Assembly (NCBI RefSeq): GCF_041477585.1
Contig: NZ_JBGNYA010000001.1
Coordinates: forward strand, 2,728,001 to 2,792,000
Direction of reading: 5' to 3'
DNA: 64,000 nt
Source: Halobellus sp. MBLA0158
Lineage (GTDB): Archaea > Halobacteriota > Halobacteria > Halobacteriales > Haloferacaceae
A program made the position numbers and the translations under genes. A model generated the notes under the pieces. That model did no database searches and was not told where the DNA came from. It worked only from the letters and a program-made list of their open reading frames with translations. This document shows positions 19,667 to 47,512 of the stretch, one piece after another. Every line of letters begins with the position of its first letter. Position 1 is the first letter of the stretch.

Positions 19667-20845
19667 TCAGCTATCGTCCGAGCCGCTGTTTCCGGAGCCA
19701 CCGCCGCTTCGGCCGGGGGCGTCGTTCGATCCGCCACGGTTACCGTTGTCAGAACCCGAATCTCCGTTTCCGCTATTTCCGTTACCCTTGTTTCCCTGCC
19801 TGCGTTCGCCTTCACCACTGTTCCCGTTTCCCGAGTTTCGCTCGTCGTTACCGGGAGCCGCCTGATTCCCGTTTCCCGAATCACCGGGGCCGTTTCCGGA
19901 CCGGCCGGGAGCGCCGTCTCCGTTTCCGTTTCCGTTCTCGTTTCCGCTCCCGTTACCGTTTCCCCGGGCCGAGTCGTTATCCGCTGCCGGCGGCCCCTGG
20001 CCGTTCCCGGGACCCCCGCTCGTCTCGTTGCCGTCCGTGGCGTTGCTCCGACCCGGGGCTTCGCCGCTACGTCCGGGGGCGCCGACGTCCTCGGGCGGTC
20101 CGGCGTCTTCGGGCGGGCCGGCGTTCGCCGGCGGGCCGCCCATCCCGCGACCGGGGTTCTCGCCCGCGATCTCACGCGCGATGGCGGCGACTTCGGGGCC
20201 CGTGAGGTTCCTGGCCTCCGTTCGGAGCCGCTCGATGCTCGAGGCGTTGACGCCGTGTTCCTCGCGGACGGCCTCGGGAAGCCCCGATGCGGTCTCGTTC
20301 GCCTGGTCCAGCCGTCGTTCGATGGCGTTGATCCGAGCCGACACCTGTGCCGTGCGAGCGCGGTACCGGCCCTCGGAGATGTTGCCGCTCTCGTGGGCCG
20401 CTTCCAACTCCGCGAGTCGGTCGCGGAGCTCCGTCAGCTGCTCTCGGCTGTCGTTGAGAGAGTCAGCAACGACCTCGGCCTTCGAGTCGTTGCTGTTGGC
20501 CGCGGCGACCCGCTGGCCGAAGGCCCGAGCCTCGACCTCGCTACCGATCTCAGTCTGTTGGACGCCGACGACAGCGGCCAGCTGGGCTCCCGGCTCAGCC
20601 GACCCCGAGTCGGCGGAGTCGTTTTCGCCCGCCGCGTCGTCGCTCGACGTCGGCTCGGCGGTCGCCGTGTCCGTCTCGTTCGGTTCGGTCGTCGTGTTCG
20701 TCGCCGTCGCCTGTGCGGTGATTCCGTCGTCCTGCATCTCGGCCAGTCCCGTCGCGGCGGCTGGCATCCCCGATGCGGCAGCGACGCCGATCGGTGCGGC
20801 CGCCACGACCACGAGGGCGACGAAGAGCGCGGATACTGACCTCAT
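19667..20845 (-). CDS. Secreted coiled-coil protein with Gly/Asn-rich tail (392 aa)
   Basis: A Sec signal peptide (MRSVSALFVALVVVAAAPIGVAAASG) is followed by a Thr/Asp/Glu-rich linker, a helical hairpin (about 130-200, LTELRDRLAELEAAHESGNI and onward) and a long low-complexity C-terminus of Gly, Asn, Ser and Asp with repeats of the GNGNS and APGRSG type. Several N-glycosylation sequons are present. The hairpin module aligns with a similar one in the secreted protein at 44,778. Both lie beside a membrane-anchored winged-helix regulator, which suggests an extracellular partner of that regulator. It is transcribed after the regulator at 20,970, with a gap of 124 bp. Confidence 0.75.
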   Translation of the reverse strand: MRSVSALFVALVVVAAAPIGVAAASGMPAAATGLAEMQDDGITAQATATNTTTEPNETDTATAEPTSSDDAAGENDSADSGSAEPGAQLAAVVGVQQTEIGSEVEARAFGQRVAAANSNDSKAEVVADSLNDSREQLTELRDRLAELEAAHESGNISEGRYRARTAQVSARINAIERRLDQANETASGLPEAVREEHGVNASSIERLRTEARNLTGPEVAAIAREIAGENPGRGMGGPPANAGPPEDAGPPEDVGAPGRSGEAPGRSNATDGNETSGGPGNGQGPPAADNDSARGNGNGSGNENGNGNGDGAPGRSGNGPGDSGNGNQAAPGNDERNSGNGNSGEGERRQGNKGNGNSGNGDSGSDNGNRGGSNDAPGRSGGGSGNSGSDDS

Positions 20846-20969
20846 CGATTCCCCCTTGGCATCGTATCGTCATATACCTCGATCATACTCGTCCCAATTT
20901 TGCGCGGATTAACTCGGTTTATCGTCCGATTGTGGCCGCTCTCGCCGCAAACGCGTGATTCGACGGCCG

Positions 20970-22274
20970 TCATTCGTCTCCCTCCGGTCCCGGACCGATA
21001 TCCTCGTCCGGCAACACGAGGACGTTCTCGCGACCCAGGCGGAACGCGTCCAAATCGCCCTCGTCGCGCATCTTCCGGACGACCTGGCTCGTCTTCGCGT
21101 CGGTCCAATCGAGCGTCTGTGCGACCTCCTGCTGTTTCATCCGCCCGCCCTCGTGTTCGACGAGCGCGAGGACGCGCTCCTCGTTGCTCAGCAGTTCGTC
21201 CTCCCACGGGGGCTCTTGGGCCGCCGCTTCTGCCGCATCGTCGCCGCCGGCGTCGGGCGACTGCGATGCCGACACGTCGCTTTCGGCGCTCGATGCCTCG
21301 TCCGGGGCGGCCGTCGTATCCGCGGCCGCACCCGCATCGTCGTCGGCGTCTGGGCCGGTATCGGCCGCCGCAGTCGGCGACGACGTGTCTGCCCCCGCGT
21401 TGGTACCGGCTCCGCCCGAATCCCCGGTCGAATCGGTGGCACCCGCCCCGACTCCGTCCGGGAACCCGGACGGGCCGCGCCGTCGGTAGAGGACCCACCC
21501 GCCGGCCGCGACGGCGACGACGAGGAGACCGACCGCCCCCCAGACGATCGGTCCGAGCCCTCCGGGATCCCTCGGAGGCGCCGTGGTCGTCGTCCCCCCG
21601 TCCGGTGTCTGTGTCCCGCCGGCCGCCGCTTCGGAGACGGCAAGCGTCGGCTCGTCCGGCCCGAAGTCCAGCGGGCCGCTCCAGACGACGATCCGCGACT
21701 CCTCGCGGAGGTCGGAGGGCTCCGGGCGGACGGTCTCCAACCCGTAGCCTTCGGGCCAGGCGAACTGCAGCGAGGTCTCGCTATCGAGGAAGAGCCCCCC
21801 GAGCGCGTCGCCGGCGCGGAGCTCGCCGCCGTCGACCGCCGCGAAGTTCGTCCAGACGAACGTGTAGGTGACGATCCCATAGTCCTGCGGGAGCTGCTGT
21901 CTGGTCGCGGAGACCGAGACGTTGCGGATGGCCATCTCCCGCCCGGTCGCGTTCTCCGCGCTGGCGGCCGTCGAGGCCATTCGGTCGCGGAACTGACTCG
22001 CGTATCGCGACTCGTTCGTTCGGATGTCCTCGCGCAAGGAGAGGAACGCGTCCGTCGTCTCGTTGGTATCCAGGCGGACGCGGTAGTCGATCGCCCAGGC
22101 CGCGTCGCCGTTCTCGCGGAGGGTGATTCGCATCGAGACGTCGTCGGGGTTGATCCCCGTCTGCGCGATGGTGTCCGTCGGCTGAGCCGACGCGCTCGTC
22201 GTCGTCGCGGCGCCCCCGACGACCACGGCGAGGACGAGGGCGACGCCGGCGAGCCGCACTACGCGGTCTCTCAT
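20970..22274 (-). CDS. Membrane-anchored winged-helix regulator with extracellular domain (434 aa)
   Basis: The order is signal peptide (1-30), extracellular beta-rich domain (about 40-220) with ATGREMAIRNV and TFVWTNF, one transmembrane helix (about 240-262, VWGAVGLLVVAVAAGGWVLY), an acidic cytoplasmic linker and a C-terminal winged helix (LLSNEERVLALVEHEGGRMKQQEVAQ, then DAKTSQVVRKMRDEGDLDAFRLGREN). It is a paralogue of the protein at 46,328, with which it shares the motifs above and the winged helix. It should sense something outside the cell and bind DNA inside without a kinase. Ligand and targets are unknown. Confidence 0.85.
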   Translation of the reverse strand: MRDRVVRLAGVALVLAVVVGGAATTTSASAQPTDTIAQTGINPDDVSMRITLRENGDAAWAIDYRVRLDTNETTDAFLSLREDIRTNESRYASQFRDRMASTAASAENATGREMAIRNVSVSATRQQLPQDYGIVTYTFVWTNFAAVDGGELRAGDALGGLFLDSETSLQFAWPEGYGLETVRPEPSDLREESRIVVWSGPLDFGPDEPTLAVSEAAAGGTQTPDGGTTTTAPPRDPGGLGPIVWGAVGLLVVAVAAGGWVLYRRRGPSGFPDGVGAGATDSTGDSGGAGTNAGADTSSPTAAADTGPDADDDAGAAADTTAAPDEASSAESDVSASQSPDAGGDDAAEAAAQEPPWEDELLSNEERVLALVEHEGGRMKQQEVAQTLDWTDAKTSQVVRKMRDEGDLDAFRLGRENVLVLPDEDIGPGPEGDE

Positions 22275-31497: not shown

Positions 31498-32337
31498 TCA
31501 CCGCTCGACGTCGGCGTCGATGTCGATCCCGAGCGTTCGGAGCCGTCGGCGCCAGGCCGCTCCCGGGATCGAGTCGGCCGACAGCAGTTCGGCCACGACC
31601 GGCCGGTACAGGACGAGCCCCTGGACCACGAACAGATTGGTCACGAGGAAGAACGTCGCCTCCTCGACGGGAAGGCCGAGGAGGTACAGTCCCGTGGTGT
31701 ACTGCTCGGAGAGCACCCAGATCCCGAGTTCGATGGCGACTCGGTCGACGGTACACAGATACAGCGTCGGGAGGAGCGTCCCGGCCGCGACGAGTCGGCG
31801 CCGCGCCCACAACTGCGGCGCGCCGACGGCCCACTGCAGGGCGACCACCGGCGCCGCCCACGCGAGGATCGCCCCGAGGTAGAACGTCGCATCGAGCGCG
31901 AGCAGCCGCCATCCGAGGAGGCCGATCCCCGCGGCGAGCGCGAGCGCGACGACCCGACCGGCGACGGGACGTTCGGTCTCCGGCCACGTGGTCGGGACCG
32001 ACAGGTGCGAGAGCCACAGCGCGGTCAGCCAGGGCTGGACGAGGATGAAGAGGTACTCCTCGATCGGTGCGTGGCCGACCGTAGCGATCGTGGTGCCGTC
32101 GCCGTACCACCAGACGCCGCGCGCGATGAGCAGATTGTCCCACGGCGTCGTGTACACCACGGCGACGACGGTGATGATCGCCACCCCGACCCAGTACCGG
32201 CGGAGGCCGCCACTGCTCCACGGTGTCGCCGACTCCCCGATCCGGGCGCGGCTCACCGCCCCGGTCGCGACGAGGAGCATCACTGCGGGCAACAGGAACG
32301 CCAGGTGAAACTGGAGGTACGTGAGCGTCGTCGTCAT
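31498..32337 (-). CDS. crtY: Lycopene beta-cyclase, fused CrtYc-CrtYd type
   Basis: The 279-residue protein has about seven spans in two related halves: YTTPWDNLLIARGVWWY with PIEEYLFILVQ in the first, and IELGIWVLSEQYTTGLYLLG with GLPVEEATFFLVTNLFVVQ in the second. This is the archaeal fusion of CrtYc and CrtYd, which turns lycopene into beta-carotene. The conserved acidic motifs PxEE in both halves are present. It overlaps nothing but is spaced 2 bp from brp. A strong inverted repeat lies between it and bop. Confidence 0.92.
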   Translation of the reverse strand: MTTTLTYLQFHLAFLLPAVMLLVATGAVSRARIGESATPWSSGGLRRYWVGVAIITVVAVVYTTPWDNLLIARGVWWYGDGTTIATVGHAPIEEYLFILVQPWLTALWLSHLSVPTTWPETERPVAGRVVALALAAGIGLLGWRLLALDATFYLGAILAWAAPVVALQWAVGAPQLWARRRLVAAGTLLPTLYLCTVDRVAIELGIWVLSEQYTTGLYLLGLPVEEATFFLVTNLFVVQGLVLYRPVVAELLSADSIPGAAWRRRLRTLGIDIDADVER

Positions 32338-32395: not shown

Positions 32396-32425
32396 GACCG
32401 GGGCCGCGGCGCCGCGACCCCGGTC
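32396..32425 (-). terminator. Strong hairpin between bop and crtY
   Basis: GACCGGGG (32,396-32,403) pairs with CCCCGGTC (32,418-32,425) across a 14 nt loop that itself contains the palindrome CGCGGCGCCGCG. A second smaller inverted repeat (GGCGGC-GA-GCCGCC) lies about 25 bp further along the transcript. There is no T run, so an attenuator or RNA-processing site is more likely than a classical terminator. Confidence 0.5.
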
Positions 32426-32525
32426 GACGTCGGTTCGCGTCGATCAGTCGTGCGGTGCGATCAGCCGGCGAGCCGGCCGATTCGTCGGCGTCCGCGTCGG
32501 CCGGCAGTCGGTGGACCGCCCGCGA

Positions 32526-44241: not shown

Positions 44242-44730
44242 TCACACCACCCCGCGGACGCTACCGACGGTCCGTCCCTTGACGGCGACGGTCACCGAAA
44301 CCGTCCGCCCCGGGGCCAGCCCCGGCGCGTTGGTCGACGCCAGTCGGAACGACGCCGACTCCCCCGCCGACCAGACGCCGTCGCCCGCGACGTTGAACGG
44401 GCCGGTCGGCCCCGCGCGGAACCCCCGCGCCGCGAAGAACGGCACCGGCGGCTGGTGGCGGAGTTCCCGCCCGTCGACGGCGACGACAAGGCGGAGGTCC
44501 GCGACCGAAAGCGGCGCGCCGGCCTCGTGGGTAAGCGTGATCGCGTCGCCGTCGAGTCGGAGCGAGAGCGCGATCGGGCCCGGGGCGTCGCCGCCCGCGT
44601 CTGCGGCGAGATCGACGCCGGCCCCGGCCGCGACGGCGTCCGCACCGGCGGCGACGACGCTGCCGAGGCCGACGCCGACCAGGAGCAAGAGCACGACACC
44701 GACCGCGGGGGCTGAAGCGCGGGCTGTCAC
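44242..44730 (-). CDS. Archaeal type IV pilin-like protein (162 aa)
   Basis: GTG 44,730 gives MTARASAPAVGVVLLLLVGVGLGSVVAAG, a short charged start followed directly by a hydrophobic helix with the AxAVGVVL context of haloarchaeal pilin signal segments cleaved by PibD. The remainder is a beta-rich domain (PGPIALSLRLDGDAITLTHEAG), as in the archaeal pilin DUF1628-type family. No ATG is available in frame near the signal, so a GTG start is proposed. It is convergent with the methyltransferase gene. Confidence 0.7.
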   Translation of the reverse strand: MTARASAPAVGVVLLLLVGVGLGSVVAAGADAVAAGAGVDLAADAGGDAPGPIALSLRLDGDAITLTHEAGAPLSVADLRLVVAVDGRELRHQPPVPFFAARGFRAGPTGPFNVAGDGVWSAGESASFRLASTNAPGLAPGRTVSVTVAVKGRTVGSVRGVV

Positions 44731-44777: not shown

Positions 44778-46178
44778 CTACGCGGACGCGTCCGGGGTCG
44801 GCGTCGCCGTGCCGCTCCCGCCGCTGTCGTTGATCGCGCCGTAGACGAACGGCGTCGACGTCGGCTCGACCGAGAGGAGCACGACGGAGCTCCCGTCGAT
44901 GGCCGTCACCTGGTAGGTACCGGCGGGCGCCATCGTCCACAGCGAGCCGTCGGAGCCGGTCCGGCCGACGACCGAACTCCGGCCGCCCGCGGGCCCGACG
45001 GTGATCTGGGCGTCGACTGGCTCGCCGGACGTCGTGCTGTTGAGTTGGAGCCGCACGGGGCCGCCGGGGTAGGTGCGGTGTGCCGTCAGATTCAGCGCGT
45101 CCTTTTCGGCCGACACGGGCGCCCGCGTGGTCATCTGATCCAGGGGGCGGTACTGGTACTCCTTGAACACGCGCTTGCTCCCGCTGTCGACGTAGGTCAC
45201 GAGGCGACCGCGCTCGTGTTCGATCGTCACGCGCGTGCTGTCGCTGTCGGGGTTGCCGAGCACGTCGTCGCGCAGGCGGAGTTCCGCCACCGTCGGGTAG
45301 GCCTGCTCTGTGGCGTTCACCGCCTCGACGAGCGAGAAGGACTCGGAGCCGCCGGTGCGGAGCGGTCCCCGGTACGCTTCACGCACGTACGTCCCGTCGC
45401 GGATGACGCCGAGGACGACGCTGTCGTCCCCCGACTGGACGAAGAAGCGCGAGGACGCGGCCTCGCCGCGGAGCACGGCGGCCGCGTAGCCGCGGACCGG
45501 TCCGGTCAGCGTGTTCAGTTCGAGCTCGATGTTGCCGAAGCGCGAGGCCGAGATCGTGAAGCCGGACGCCTCCCGAGCGAACGACTGGAGCCGCGCCCGG
45601 CGATCTTCGAGCTCGCGGGCCTCGGCGTCGATCAGCGCGAGCTCGTACAGGAGTCGCCGCGGCGAGAGGTCCCCCCGGCTGTACGCCGCGACGACTTGTC
45701 GCTGCCGCGCGCGGAGCGAGACCACGCGCTGTTCGACCGCGCTGACCTCCTGGAGCAGGTACTGCTGGCGCGTGGCGTCGGTCTCGGCCGCCTCGATCCG
45801 GGCGAGCACGGTCGTCGTCTCCAGCCGCGCGTCGGTCGTGGCCGAGGTGAACGCGAGCCCGCTGCCGAGTTCGACGTACTCGGTTTCGAGGGTGCTCCGG
45901 GCCGACGATGCCGCGGGGATGCCGAGGACATTGATCACCCGGCGCTGGGCCGCCTCGGCCTCGGCGTCGTCCAACTGGGCGGTGCCGGCGAAGTCCGCCC
46001 CGGTCGAGGCGGTCGCAGTGGCCGTACCGGCCTCCGGCGTGGGAGAGGCGATTTGGGCTCTCGGCGTCGACGACTGATCGACAGCCGGGGCTCCGTCGGC
46101 CGCCGAGAGGGCTGGCGCGCCCCCGGCCACGGCCGAGAGCGCGAGGAGGAAAGCGAGGGCGAGCGGGACGGCACGCAT
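44778..46178 (-). CDS. Secreted coiled-coil protein (466 aa), partner of a membrane regulator
   Basis: The protein has a Sec signal (MRAVPLALAFLLALSAVAGG), an Ala/Thr/Ser-rich linker and a helical hairpin (about 150-220, LRARQRQVVAAYSRGDLSPRR and onward). It continues into a beta-rich half (about 210-440) with TIEHERGRLVTYVDSG and a final Ig-like unit (PVDAQITVGPAGGRSSVVGR). No lipobox and no C-terminal anchor were seen. The hairpin aligns with that of the protein at 19,667 (shared LRxR...AA...G..S..R pattern). The divergent neighbour at 46,328 is a membrane winged-helix regulator. The two loci thus repeat the same pairing. Confidence 0.75.
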   Translation of the reverse strand: MRAVPLALAFLLALSAVAGGAPALSAADGAPAVDQSSTPRAQIASPTPEAGTATATASTGADFAGTAQLDDAEAEAAQRRVINVLGIPAASSARSTLETEYVELGSGLAFTSATTDARLETTTVLARIEAAETDATRQQYLLQEVSAVEQRVVSLRARQRQVVAAYSRGDLSPRRLLYELALIDAEARELEDRRARLQSFAREASGFTISASRFGNIELELNTLTGPVRGYAAAVLRGEAASSRFFVQSGDDSVVLGVIRDGTYVREAYRGPLRTGGSESFSLVEAVNATEQAYPTVAELRLRDDVLGNPDSDSTRVTIEHERGRLVTYVDSGSKRVFKEYQYRPLDQMTTRAPVSAEKDALNLTAHRTYPGGPVRLQLNSTTSGEPVDAQITVGPAGGRSSVVGRTGSDGSLWTMAPAGTYQVTAIDGSSVVLLSVEPTSTPFVYGAINDSGGSGTATPTPDASA

Positions 46179-46327
46179 ACCCGGACCTTCACCGTCCGAT
46201 AGTAAAAAACGACGTCATACGGTCGGCCGGGCGGGCGGCGCCGACAGCGGGACGCCGTCGACGGCTGCGGCCCTCGCGAGTGGCGTGATGGAAAGCGTTT
46301 TGAGCGTTCCACGTGGACTCCCTGCAA

Positions 46328-47512
46328 ATGCGGACACCCGCGCTGTGGTTCGCCCTCCTCCTCGTCTTCGCCGCCGTCGCTCCGGCCCCGGCGCTCGCCG
46401 CCACCGACGACCCGTCGGCGTCGGCCGCCCGGCCGCAGGTGACCGACGGCGACGGCGCCGTCCCCCGGACGAGCGTGGACATCGCGCTCCGCCCGGACCG
46501 AAGCGCGTACTGGCGGATCGAAGTCCGGTACGACCTCGAAACCGAAAACGAGACTCAGGGGTTCCGGGAGATCGCCTCGCGCTACGAGTCGGGGACGGCC
46601 GACGTGGGCCCGAGCGCCGTCCTCTTCCGATCGCTCAGCCAGCGGGCGAGCGAGGCGACCGGGCGGGAGATGGCGATCGAGAACGTCACCTACCACAGTT
46701 CGCTCGACGCCGAGGCGGGCCGCGGGACGCTCGCGCTGACGTTCGAGTGGACGAACTTCCTCCGGCAGGGCGACAACGAGACGCTCGTCCTCGACGACGC
46801 CTTCCTGCTCCCGACCGCCGAGGCCGACGACCAGCGGACCTGGCTTTCGATCTTCGATCAGAACCAGGAGATCCGGATCAGTCCGCCCGAGGGATACACC
46901 GTCTCGAGTACGAGCATCGCCGTCCAGCAGCGCGAGAGCGCCGTCGTCCTCACCCAGCCCTCCGACTTCGAAGACGAGGGGCAGCTCCGGATCACATACA
47001 GCGCGATCGGCCCCGCCGGCCGGCTGCCGCTCGGACTCATCGCGGGCGCGCTCGTCGCCGTCGCGCTCGTCGCCGGCGCGTGGGCGTTCCGCAGCGGCGG
47101 ACGGGTGCCGCTCCTCGGGTCGCTGTTCGGAGCCGCAGACGAGCACGAGGAGTCGGTCGCGGTCGATCCCGACGGACCCGTCACCGAGGGGACGCACGTC
47201 GACGAACACGCCGAGAGGGTCGAAAGCGAGGATGACGCCGACGGCGATGGAGACGGCGACGAAGCCGGCGTCGATCTCTCGCTGCTCTCCGACGAGGAGC
47301 GCGTCGAGCGCCTGTTGGAGCAGAACGGCGGGCGGATGAAGCAGGCCACGATCGTCGACGAGACCGGCTGGTCGGACGCGAAGGTCTCGCAGTTGCTGTC
47401 GACGATGGCCGACGAGGGGCGAGTCGACAAGCTCCGACTCGGCCGCGAGAACCTGATCTCGCTTCCGGACGACGAGGCGGGCGCCGACGACGGCGCGGAC
47501 GAAAGTCAGTGA
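46328..47512 (+). CDS. Membrane-anchored winged-helix regulator with extracellular domain (394 aa)
   Basis: ATG 46,328 gives a signal peptide (MRTPALWFALLLVFAAVAPA), an extracellular domain with ATGREMAIENV and TFEWTNF, one transmembrane helix (LPLGLIAGALVAVALVAGAW), an acidic linker and a winged helix (LLSDEERVERLLEQNGGRMK, DAKVSQLLSTMADEGRVDKLRLGREN). It is a clear paralogue of the protein at 20,970. It should carry an outside signal straight to DNA. A longer start at GTG 46,313 is less likely, because TTTTGAG at about 46,296-46,302 lies 26-32 nt before ATG 46,328. Confidence 0.85.
   Translation: MRTPALWFALLLVFAAVAPAPALAATDDPSASAARPQVTDGDGAVPRTSVDIALRPDRSAYWRIEVRYDLETENETQGFREIASRYESGTADVGPSAVLFRSLSQRASEATGREMAIENVTYHSSLDAEAGRGTLALTFEWTNFLRQGDNETLVLDDAFLLPTAEADDQRTWLSIFDQNQEIRISPPEGYTVSSTSIAVQQRESAVVLTQPSDFEDEGQLRITYSAIGPAGRLPLGLIAGALVAVALVAGAWAFRSGGRVPLLGSLFGAADEHEESVAVDPDGPVTEGTHVDEHAERVESEDDADGDGDGDEAGVDLSLLSDEERVERLLEQNGGRMKQATIVDETGWSDAKVSQLLSTMADEGRVDKLRLGRENLISLPDDEAGADDGADESQ

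Follow-up and report, generated by a model that had tools for sequence, protein, structure and literature searches.

A membrane-anchored winged-helix regulator, its secreted partner gene, and a candidate 10-bp repeat operator in haloarchaea

How is a membrane-anchored regulator related to the secreted protein that is encoded next to it? This question is raised by a locus, here called locus A, in a window of 64 kb (the whole stretch of DNA that was analyzed) from a 3.29-Mb haloarchaeal genome. The gene for a membrane-anchored winged-helix regulator of 434 aa, REG_A, is found on the minus strand at 20970..22274. It is followed, after a gap of 124 bp, by a minus-strand gene for a secreted protein of 392 aa, SEC_A, at 19667..20845. 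Both ORFs have the coordinates given in a first-pass annotation, which had proposed that the secreted protein presents or modulates a signal for the regulator.

REG_A begins with a Sec-type N-terminus, followed by a DUF7345 ectodomain and a membrane helix with the residues RRR after it; a long acidic linker then leads to a DUF7343 winged helix. Residues 49-177 correspond to DUF7345 (E=1.6e-33, 116.1 bits, cut-off 27.5), and residues 361-422 (21009..21194, minus strand) correspond to DUF7343 (E=7.4e-27, 93.4 bits, cut-off 27.6). In the AlphaFold2 model, the ectodomain (about residues 41-220; 21615..22154, minus strand) is predicted with very high confidence (pLDDT mostly >90) as a mixed sheet with two long helices. 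The model places the membrane helix at residues 243-265 (21480..21548, minus strand) and the winged helix at residues 364-420. As RRR follows the membrane helix, the C-terminus is predicted to be inside. The two domain matches and the model thus agree with the earlier description of an outside domain, one membrane helix, and an inside winged helix. Foldseek searches indicated that the fold of the winged helix is similar to those of SmtB, CzrA, and MarR proteins, and gave no convincing structural match for the ectodomain. Matches of the whole regulator model to antenna (FMO) proteins (TM <0.2) and LppM (TM 0.39) were not accepted as homology. DUF4897, also a family without an assigned function, matches 24 of 66 homologues of the regulator at E<=0.01. 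REG_A carries both a membrane segment and a DNA-binding domain within a single chain, the structural criterion for transmembrane transcription regulators (PMC10269533). A domain search detected neither a histidine kinase nor a receiver domain in REG_A or SEC_A, and the pair is not a two-component system.

The downstream gene also has the features that had been described. SEC_A consists of a Sec-type signal, a conserved helical domain of 150 residues (20159..20608, minus strand), delimited by the SEC_A alignment and a genome search, and a Gly/Asn-rich tail. Its similarity to DUF7096 is weak (E=8e-6 and 26.3 bits when searched alone, cut-off 27; 28 bits in a whole-frame search). The N-terminal signal is the only hydrophobic stretch that was found in most SEC_A homologues, and, judging from sequence, SEC_A appears to be unanchored in the membrane.

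The first-pass annotation had stated that the same combination recurs at 44778-47512. A homologous pair is indeed present there, but locus B is divergent and not tandem, with SEC_B at 44778..46178 on the minus strand and REG_B, a second membrane winged-helix regulator, at 46328..47512 on the plus strand (conserved start ATG at 46328; longest ORF from 46313). According to the domain search and the model, SEC_B is not just a hairpin protein: besides DUF7096, matched with 81.7 bits, it contains DUF7094 and an archaeal Fn3 domain. The two regulators share ATGREMAI and TFxWTNF, and the alignment of the secreted hairpins noticed earlier holds, as LRxR......AA...G..S..R is present in both proteins. 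Although pairwise BLASTP of SEC_A against SEC_B gave no signal (E=2.1), profiles grown from either protein converge on the same 134 ORFs, which indicates that the homology is real. The SEC_B model contains long helices at residues 134-167 and 173-203 with a G-D-L-S-P turn between them; Foldseek found no significant match to this model, only generic Fn3-like domains. In this genome, the cut-off is exceeded by exactly two genes for DUF7345 and two for DUF7096, and they are paired one to one. The gene beside SEC_B, at 44242-44694, encodes a small protein whose N-terminus shows a weak pilin-like match, and such a gene accompanies SEC_B in 15 of the 20 B loci that were examined.

DUF7345 is present in 242/242 haloarchaeal genomes sampled from the class. 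In a 44-genome sample, all DUF7345 and DUF7096 matches were tabulated; because the Pfam cut-off misses many A-type partners, the flanks were searched with profiles built in this analysis, and start codons of homologues were picked by their hydrophobic N-terminus. The regulator tree comprises clades A, B, and C together with a "short" clade of DUF7345 proteins without the winged helix, and the secreted-protein tree splits into A and B in parallel with it. A named set of 80 REG_A loci was obtained in a separate search with the REG_A alignment and overlaps partly with the training genomes (e.g., Halorubrum sodomense). A neighborhood survey, the check proposed in the first-pass annotation, favors the pairing for the linked clades, as the divergent B pair occurs in 42/44 genomes and SEC_A lies inside the examined flank in 78/80 named REG_A loci. 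It does not extend to clade C, whose partner is encoded elsewhere in the genome, or to A2, an A-type sub-clade confined to family f4, for which neither a secreted neighbor nor a partner elsewhere was found (L137, L139, L145, L150, L151, L153, L199, L207, and L229).

Adjacency might also reflect chance or general synteny, with no functional link. The B pair is consistent with this, as it lies within a largely conserved housekeeping block that extends from ATP synthase genes to GGPP synthase, and B adjacency is therefore weaker evidence than A adjacency. The A loci, in contrast, vary in surroundings and gene order: the regulator comes first in Halobellus, Haloferax, Haloarcula, and Natrinema, the secreted gene comes first in Halorubrum, and the two are on opposite strands in Natronomonas. 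Moreover, the same 33 of 44 genomes harbor both REG_A and SEC_A and the same 11 harbor neither (Fisher p=1.3e-10, a value that ignores phylogeny, though the absences recur across many genera). Here the REG_A count excludes the A2 sub-clade, SEC_A was called by a SEC_A-specific profile, and for genome G043 the adjacent, more divergent partner was included in the count. The 11 genomes are scattered over the tree and include G014, a congener of this organism; G014 and G018 lack both genes, which are present together in congeners. REG_A and SEC_A are not linked in genus g23, and G018, the only sampled species of the genus without REG_A, is also without SEC_A. The same behavior is seen in clade C. 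A third secreted sub-family, SEC_C (L198 and L209-L226), is encoded away from the regulator and is present in 19/21 genomes with REG_C and 0/23 without it (Fisher ~1e-10 over the 44 genomes, again ignoring phylogeny). Varied surroundings and the co-loss of both genes show that the A pair is not mere synteny, and co-occurrence of unlinked genes shows the same for the C pair. We consider an explanation by chance or synteny hardly credible, and the results support a functional tie between regulator and secreted protein.

Two variants of these loci were observed. Most of the short DUF7345 proteins without a winged helix adjoin SEC_A, in several genera (L109:1873-2589, L111:6067-6732, L117:5939-6628, L143:3697-4371, and L208:3779-4489). 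A C-terminal PGF-CTERM anchor motif was found in two of the five that were scanned, and these proteins are perhaps decoy receptors or co-receptors. In the other, L133:4514-6601 encodes a secreted protein of 695 aa that combines DUF7096 with carboxypeptidase-regulatory-like and Fn3 domains; the gene is divergent from a DUF7345 regulator gene, and a short DUF7345 gene comes after.

If the two genes are tied, in which direction does the tie run? The SEC_A promoter provides a clue. Three 10-bp direct repeats, ATAAACCGAG TTAATCCGCG CAAAATTGGG, the last of them degenerate, lie at 20893..20922 on the minus strand and are proposed as the REG_A operator. The consensus of the repeat unit is TTAATCCGGC, which drifts to a GTTGAACGGC-like form in family f4. 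A TATA box read from the sequence, TATAT, follows at 20872..20876 (minus strand), 27-31 nt before the ATG at 20845, and this spacing suggests that the transcript is probably leaderless. When SEC_A promoters are placed side by side, the rows of direct repeats end shortly before the TATA box. With one sequence per genus (15 genera), self-match at lag 10 gave z=10.5 upstream of SEC_A, and the same test gave nothing for B intergenic regions or for the DNA upstream of the regulators. The array was recovered in 15/15 genera by leave-one-genus-out matrices (p=0.005, the floor, in 14, and 0.025 in the remaining one). Within the named set, the 99th percentile of 525 neighboring promoters was exceeded by 66 of the 76 SEC_A promoters that were scored. 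The array tracks SEC_A whether the regulator or the secreted gene comes first, whether they are on opposite strands, and when they are unlinked; in genus g23, where SEC_A is at an unrelated location, the array is retained. No 30-mer on either strand of the window scores higher than the array at 20893..20922, which reaches 17.5 (shuffle p=0.001). The second-best array-like site, at 32418-32447 with a score of 12.1, precedes a lycopene cyclase-like gene on the minus strand (31498-32337); it is weak and may be due to chance.

A conserved array at the SEC_A promoter is what is expected of a target gene, and the arrow that is best supported therefore most likely runs from REG_A to SEC_A, opposite to the one drawn earlier. 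From the first-pass annotation, the one-component outside-to-DNA design and the functional tie stand, while the role of SEC_A as signal or presenter does not follow, as the promoter array points the other way. A model in which the secreted protein is the input, and not chiefly a target, would account for the tight pairing and co-inheritance, and has a precedent in ToxS and TcpH as associated proteins (PMC10269533), but the class-wide promoter array of SEC_A is a trait expected of a target gene, and we regard this model as unlikely.

The array is found upstream of SEC_A and not of REG_A, so the DNA alone does not name REG_A as the binder. We therefore also considered that another transcription factor binds the array and that REG_A and SEC_A are linked for different reasons. 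Pattern searches across genomes bear on this. A two-repeat pattern with <=2 mismatches occurs at four places in this genome (one on both strands), and its reversed control at none. Three of the four are just upstream of genes for secreted proteins, namely SEC_A, a DUF4382 lipoprotein, and a small secreted protein; the fourth is without a called gene. In genera g23 and g2, the array is likewise found at genes for a DUF4382 lipoprotein or a small secreted protein. A DUF4382 protein of Haloferax volcanii, HVO_1030, is N-glycosylated and carries a lipobox (PMC8241124). Among 194 genomes, there are 10 exact two-repeat sites, of which eight precede genes for exported proteins: SEC_A (one), DUF4382 lipoproteins (three), a larger secreted protein (one), and pairs of a small secreted protein and a DUF4382 protein (three, two of them in one genome). 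The other two, from two genomes of genus g21 (L320 and L321), each adjoin a CspA-like cold-shock gene, a location that, like the lack of an array at the REG_A promoter, would favor a different binder. On the other hand, strict two-repeat sites are confined to REG_A-bearing genomes in the 44-genome sample, and the array stays with SEC_A even when SEC_A is unlinked from the regulator. The overlap between array and REG_A genomes is partly circular, because SEC_A is absent from genomes without REG_A; for arrays at genes other than SEC_A, the association with REG_A presence has p=0.037. A different binder seems to us rather improbable.

Other elements of these promoters and of the regulators also differ by clade. 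The recognition helices read AKTSQVV in clade A, AKVSQLL in clade B, and SKVSMLL in clade C, and the conserved promoter elements are the decamers at SEC_A, TGAACGGTnCGAACGAAGGT at SEC_C, and ATGGAAAGCGTTTT at REG_B. These clade-specific helices and elements suggest, as the simplest account, that each regulator would control its own partner from the membrane. At SEC_C promoters, TGAACGGTnCGAACGAAGGT is fixed at ~56 nt before the ATG; periodicity is weak (lag-9 z=4.1), too weak for us to claim a tandem array. Element B, ATGGAAAGCGTTTT, is conserved across the class, and the copy at the core-promoter position of REG_B (46288..46301, plus strand) is the only exact one in this genome. Element B (ATGGAAAGNNTTTT) was considered as an operator, but it occupies the BRE/TATA position of REG_B and, in three family-f4 genomes, is also found at the promoter of an unrelated conserved gene, a GTPase-like one. 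Element B may therefore be an extended core promoter.

Taken together, the account that we favor, and consider probable, is as follows. REG_A would hold its DUF7345 ectodomain outside, cross the membrane with one helix, and place its ArsR/MarR-like winged helix inside, where it would bind the 10-bp direct repeats just upstream of the SEC_A BRE/TATA as well as those at a few other genes for secreted proteins (DUF4382 lipoproteins and a small secreted protein). The 10-bp spacing would put successive monomers on the same face of the DNA, and a position upstream of BRE/TATA suits an activator. REG_A is thus most likely an activator of the array-bearing genes, with SEC_A as its main conserved target. 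The A, B, and C pairs would be the products of divergence within the family, with every regulator clade keeping a secreted partner of its own. SEC_A would in turn act back on the REG_A ectodomain, as ToxS does on ToxR; this feedback, proposed by analogy, is the weakest step, and we put it forward tentatively.

A serious competitor, in our estimate somewhat short of an even chance, omits this last step: the regulator senses the envelope itself and drives exported proteins including the SEC protein, which never contacts it. SEC_A is one array-marked target among several exported proteins, co-inheritance requires just that the SEC protein be the main job of the regulator, and the clade C partner is unlinked, all of which agree with such a scheme. 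It is harder to reconcile with the homologous partner kept by each of the three regulator clades, and with the finding, in several genera, of DUF7345 proteins that lack the winged helix and adjoin SEC_A, which hints at contact between the two domains. Going beyond the feedback that we favor, SEC_A might even be an archaeal protein autoinducer, secreted under the control of REG_A and activating REG_A ectodomains on its own and neighboring cells. We consider this a long shot; if true, the A, B, and C pairs would form three channels insulated from one another, with a separate promoter code and a separate secreted helical ligand for each.

DUF7345, DUF7343, DUF7096, and DUF7094 have only DUF names, and our literature search found no paper naming them. 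The regulator families among them would represent further transmembrane transcription regulators, their transcriptional action being predicted. The pairing, the array, and the small predicted regulon of exported proteins provide a testable signaling system for the archaeal cell surface, and the three paralogous pairs are a natural test of specificity among regulator, secreted partner, and promoter code. Among archaeal proteins, ArnR and ArnR1 of Sulfolobus are also membrane-bound one-component regulators with a helix-turn-helix (PMC6396743; PMC13286277). They differ in that this domain is in the N-terminal region and their targets are archaellum and pilus genes, and they are listed without an associated protein (PMC10269533). 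A closer parallel in design is ToxR/ToxS of Vibrio, which likewise consists of a single-pass membrane one-component regulator with a winged helix and an accessory protein encoded nearby, the place taken here by SEC_A. ToxR is the prototype of transmembrane transcription regulators, and its DNA-binding end is N-terminal with an OmpR-like winged helix. In REG_A, this end is C-terminal and the winged helix is ArsR/MarR-like; the two proteins have no sequence relation, REG_A would act on an archaeal basal promoter, and SEC_A, unlike ToxS, appears to be secreted without a membrane anchor. By topology and fold, REG_A is not a member of the ToxR family. The ToxR box, 5'-TNAAA-N5-TNAAT-3' (PMC7496328), nevertheless resembles the SEC_A array (TTAAT-N5-TTAAT, with REG_A as its presumed binder) in its direct repeats at 10-bp spacing just upstream of the core promoter. 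As the proteins are unrelated and their topology is opposite, this common operator spacing would be a case of convergence. If our account is correct, REG_A and SEC_A would represent a counterpart of ToxR-type regulation that arose independently in archaea, in which an unrelated protein of opposite topology uses the same operator spacing.
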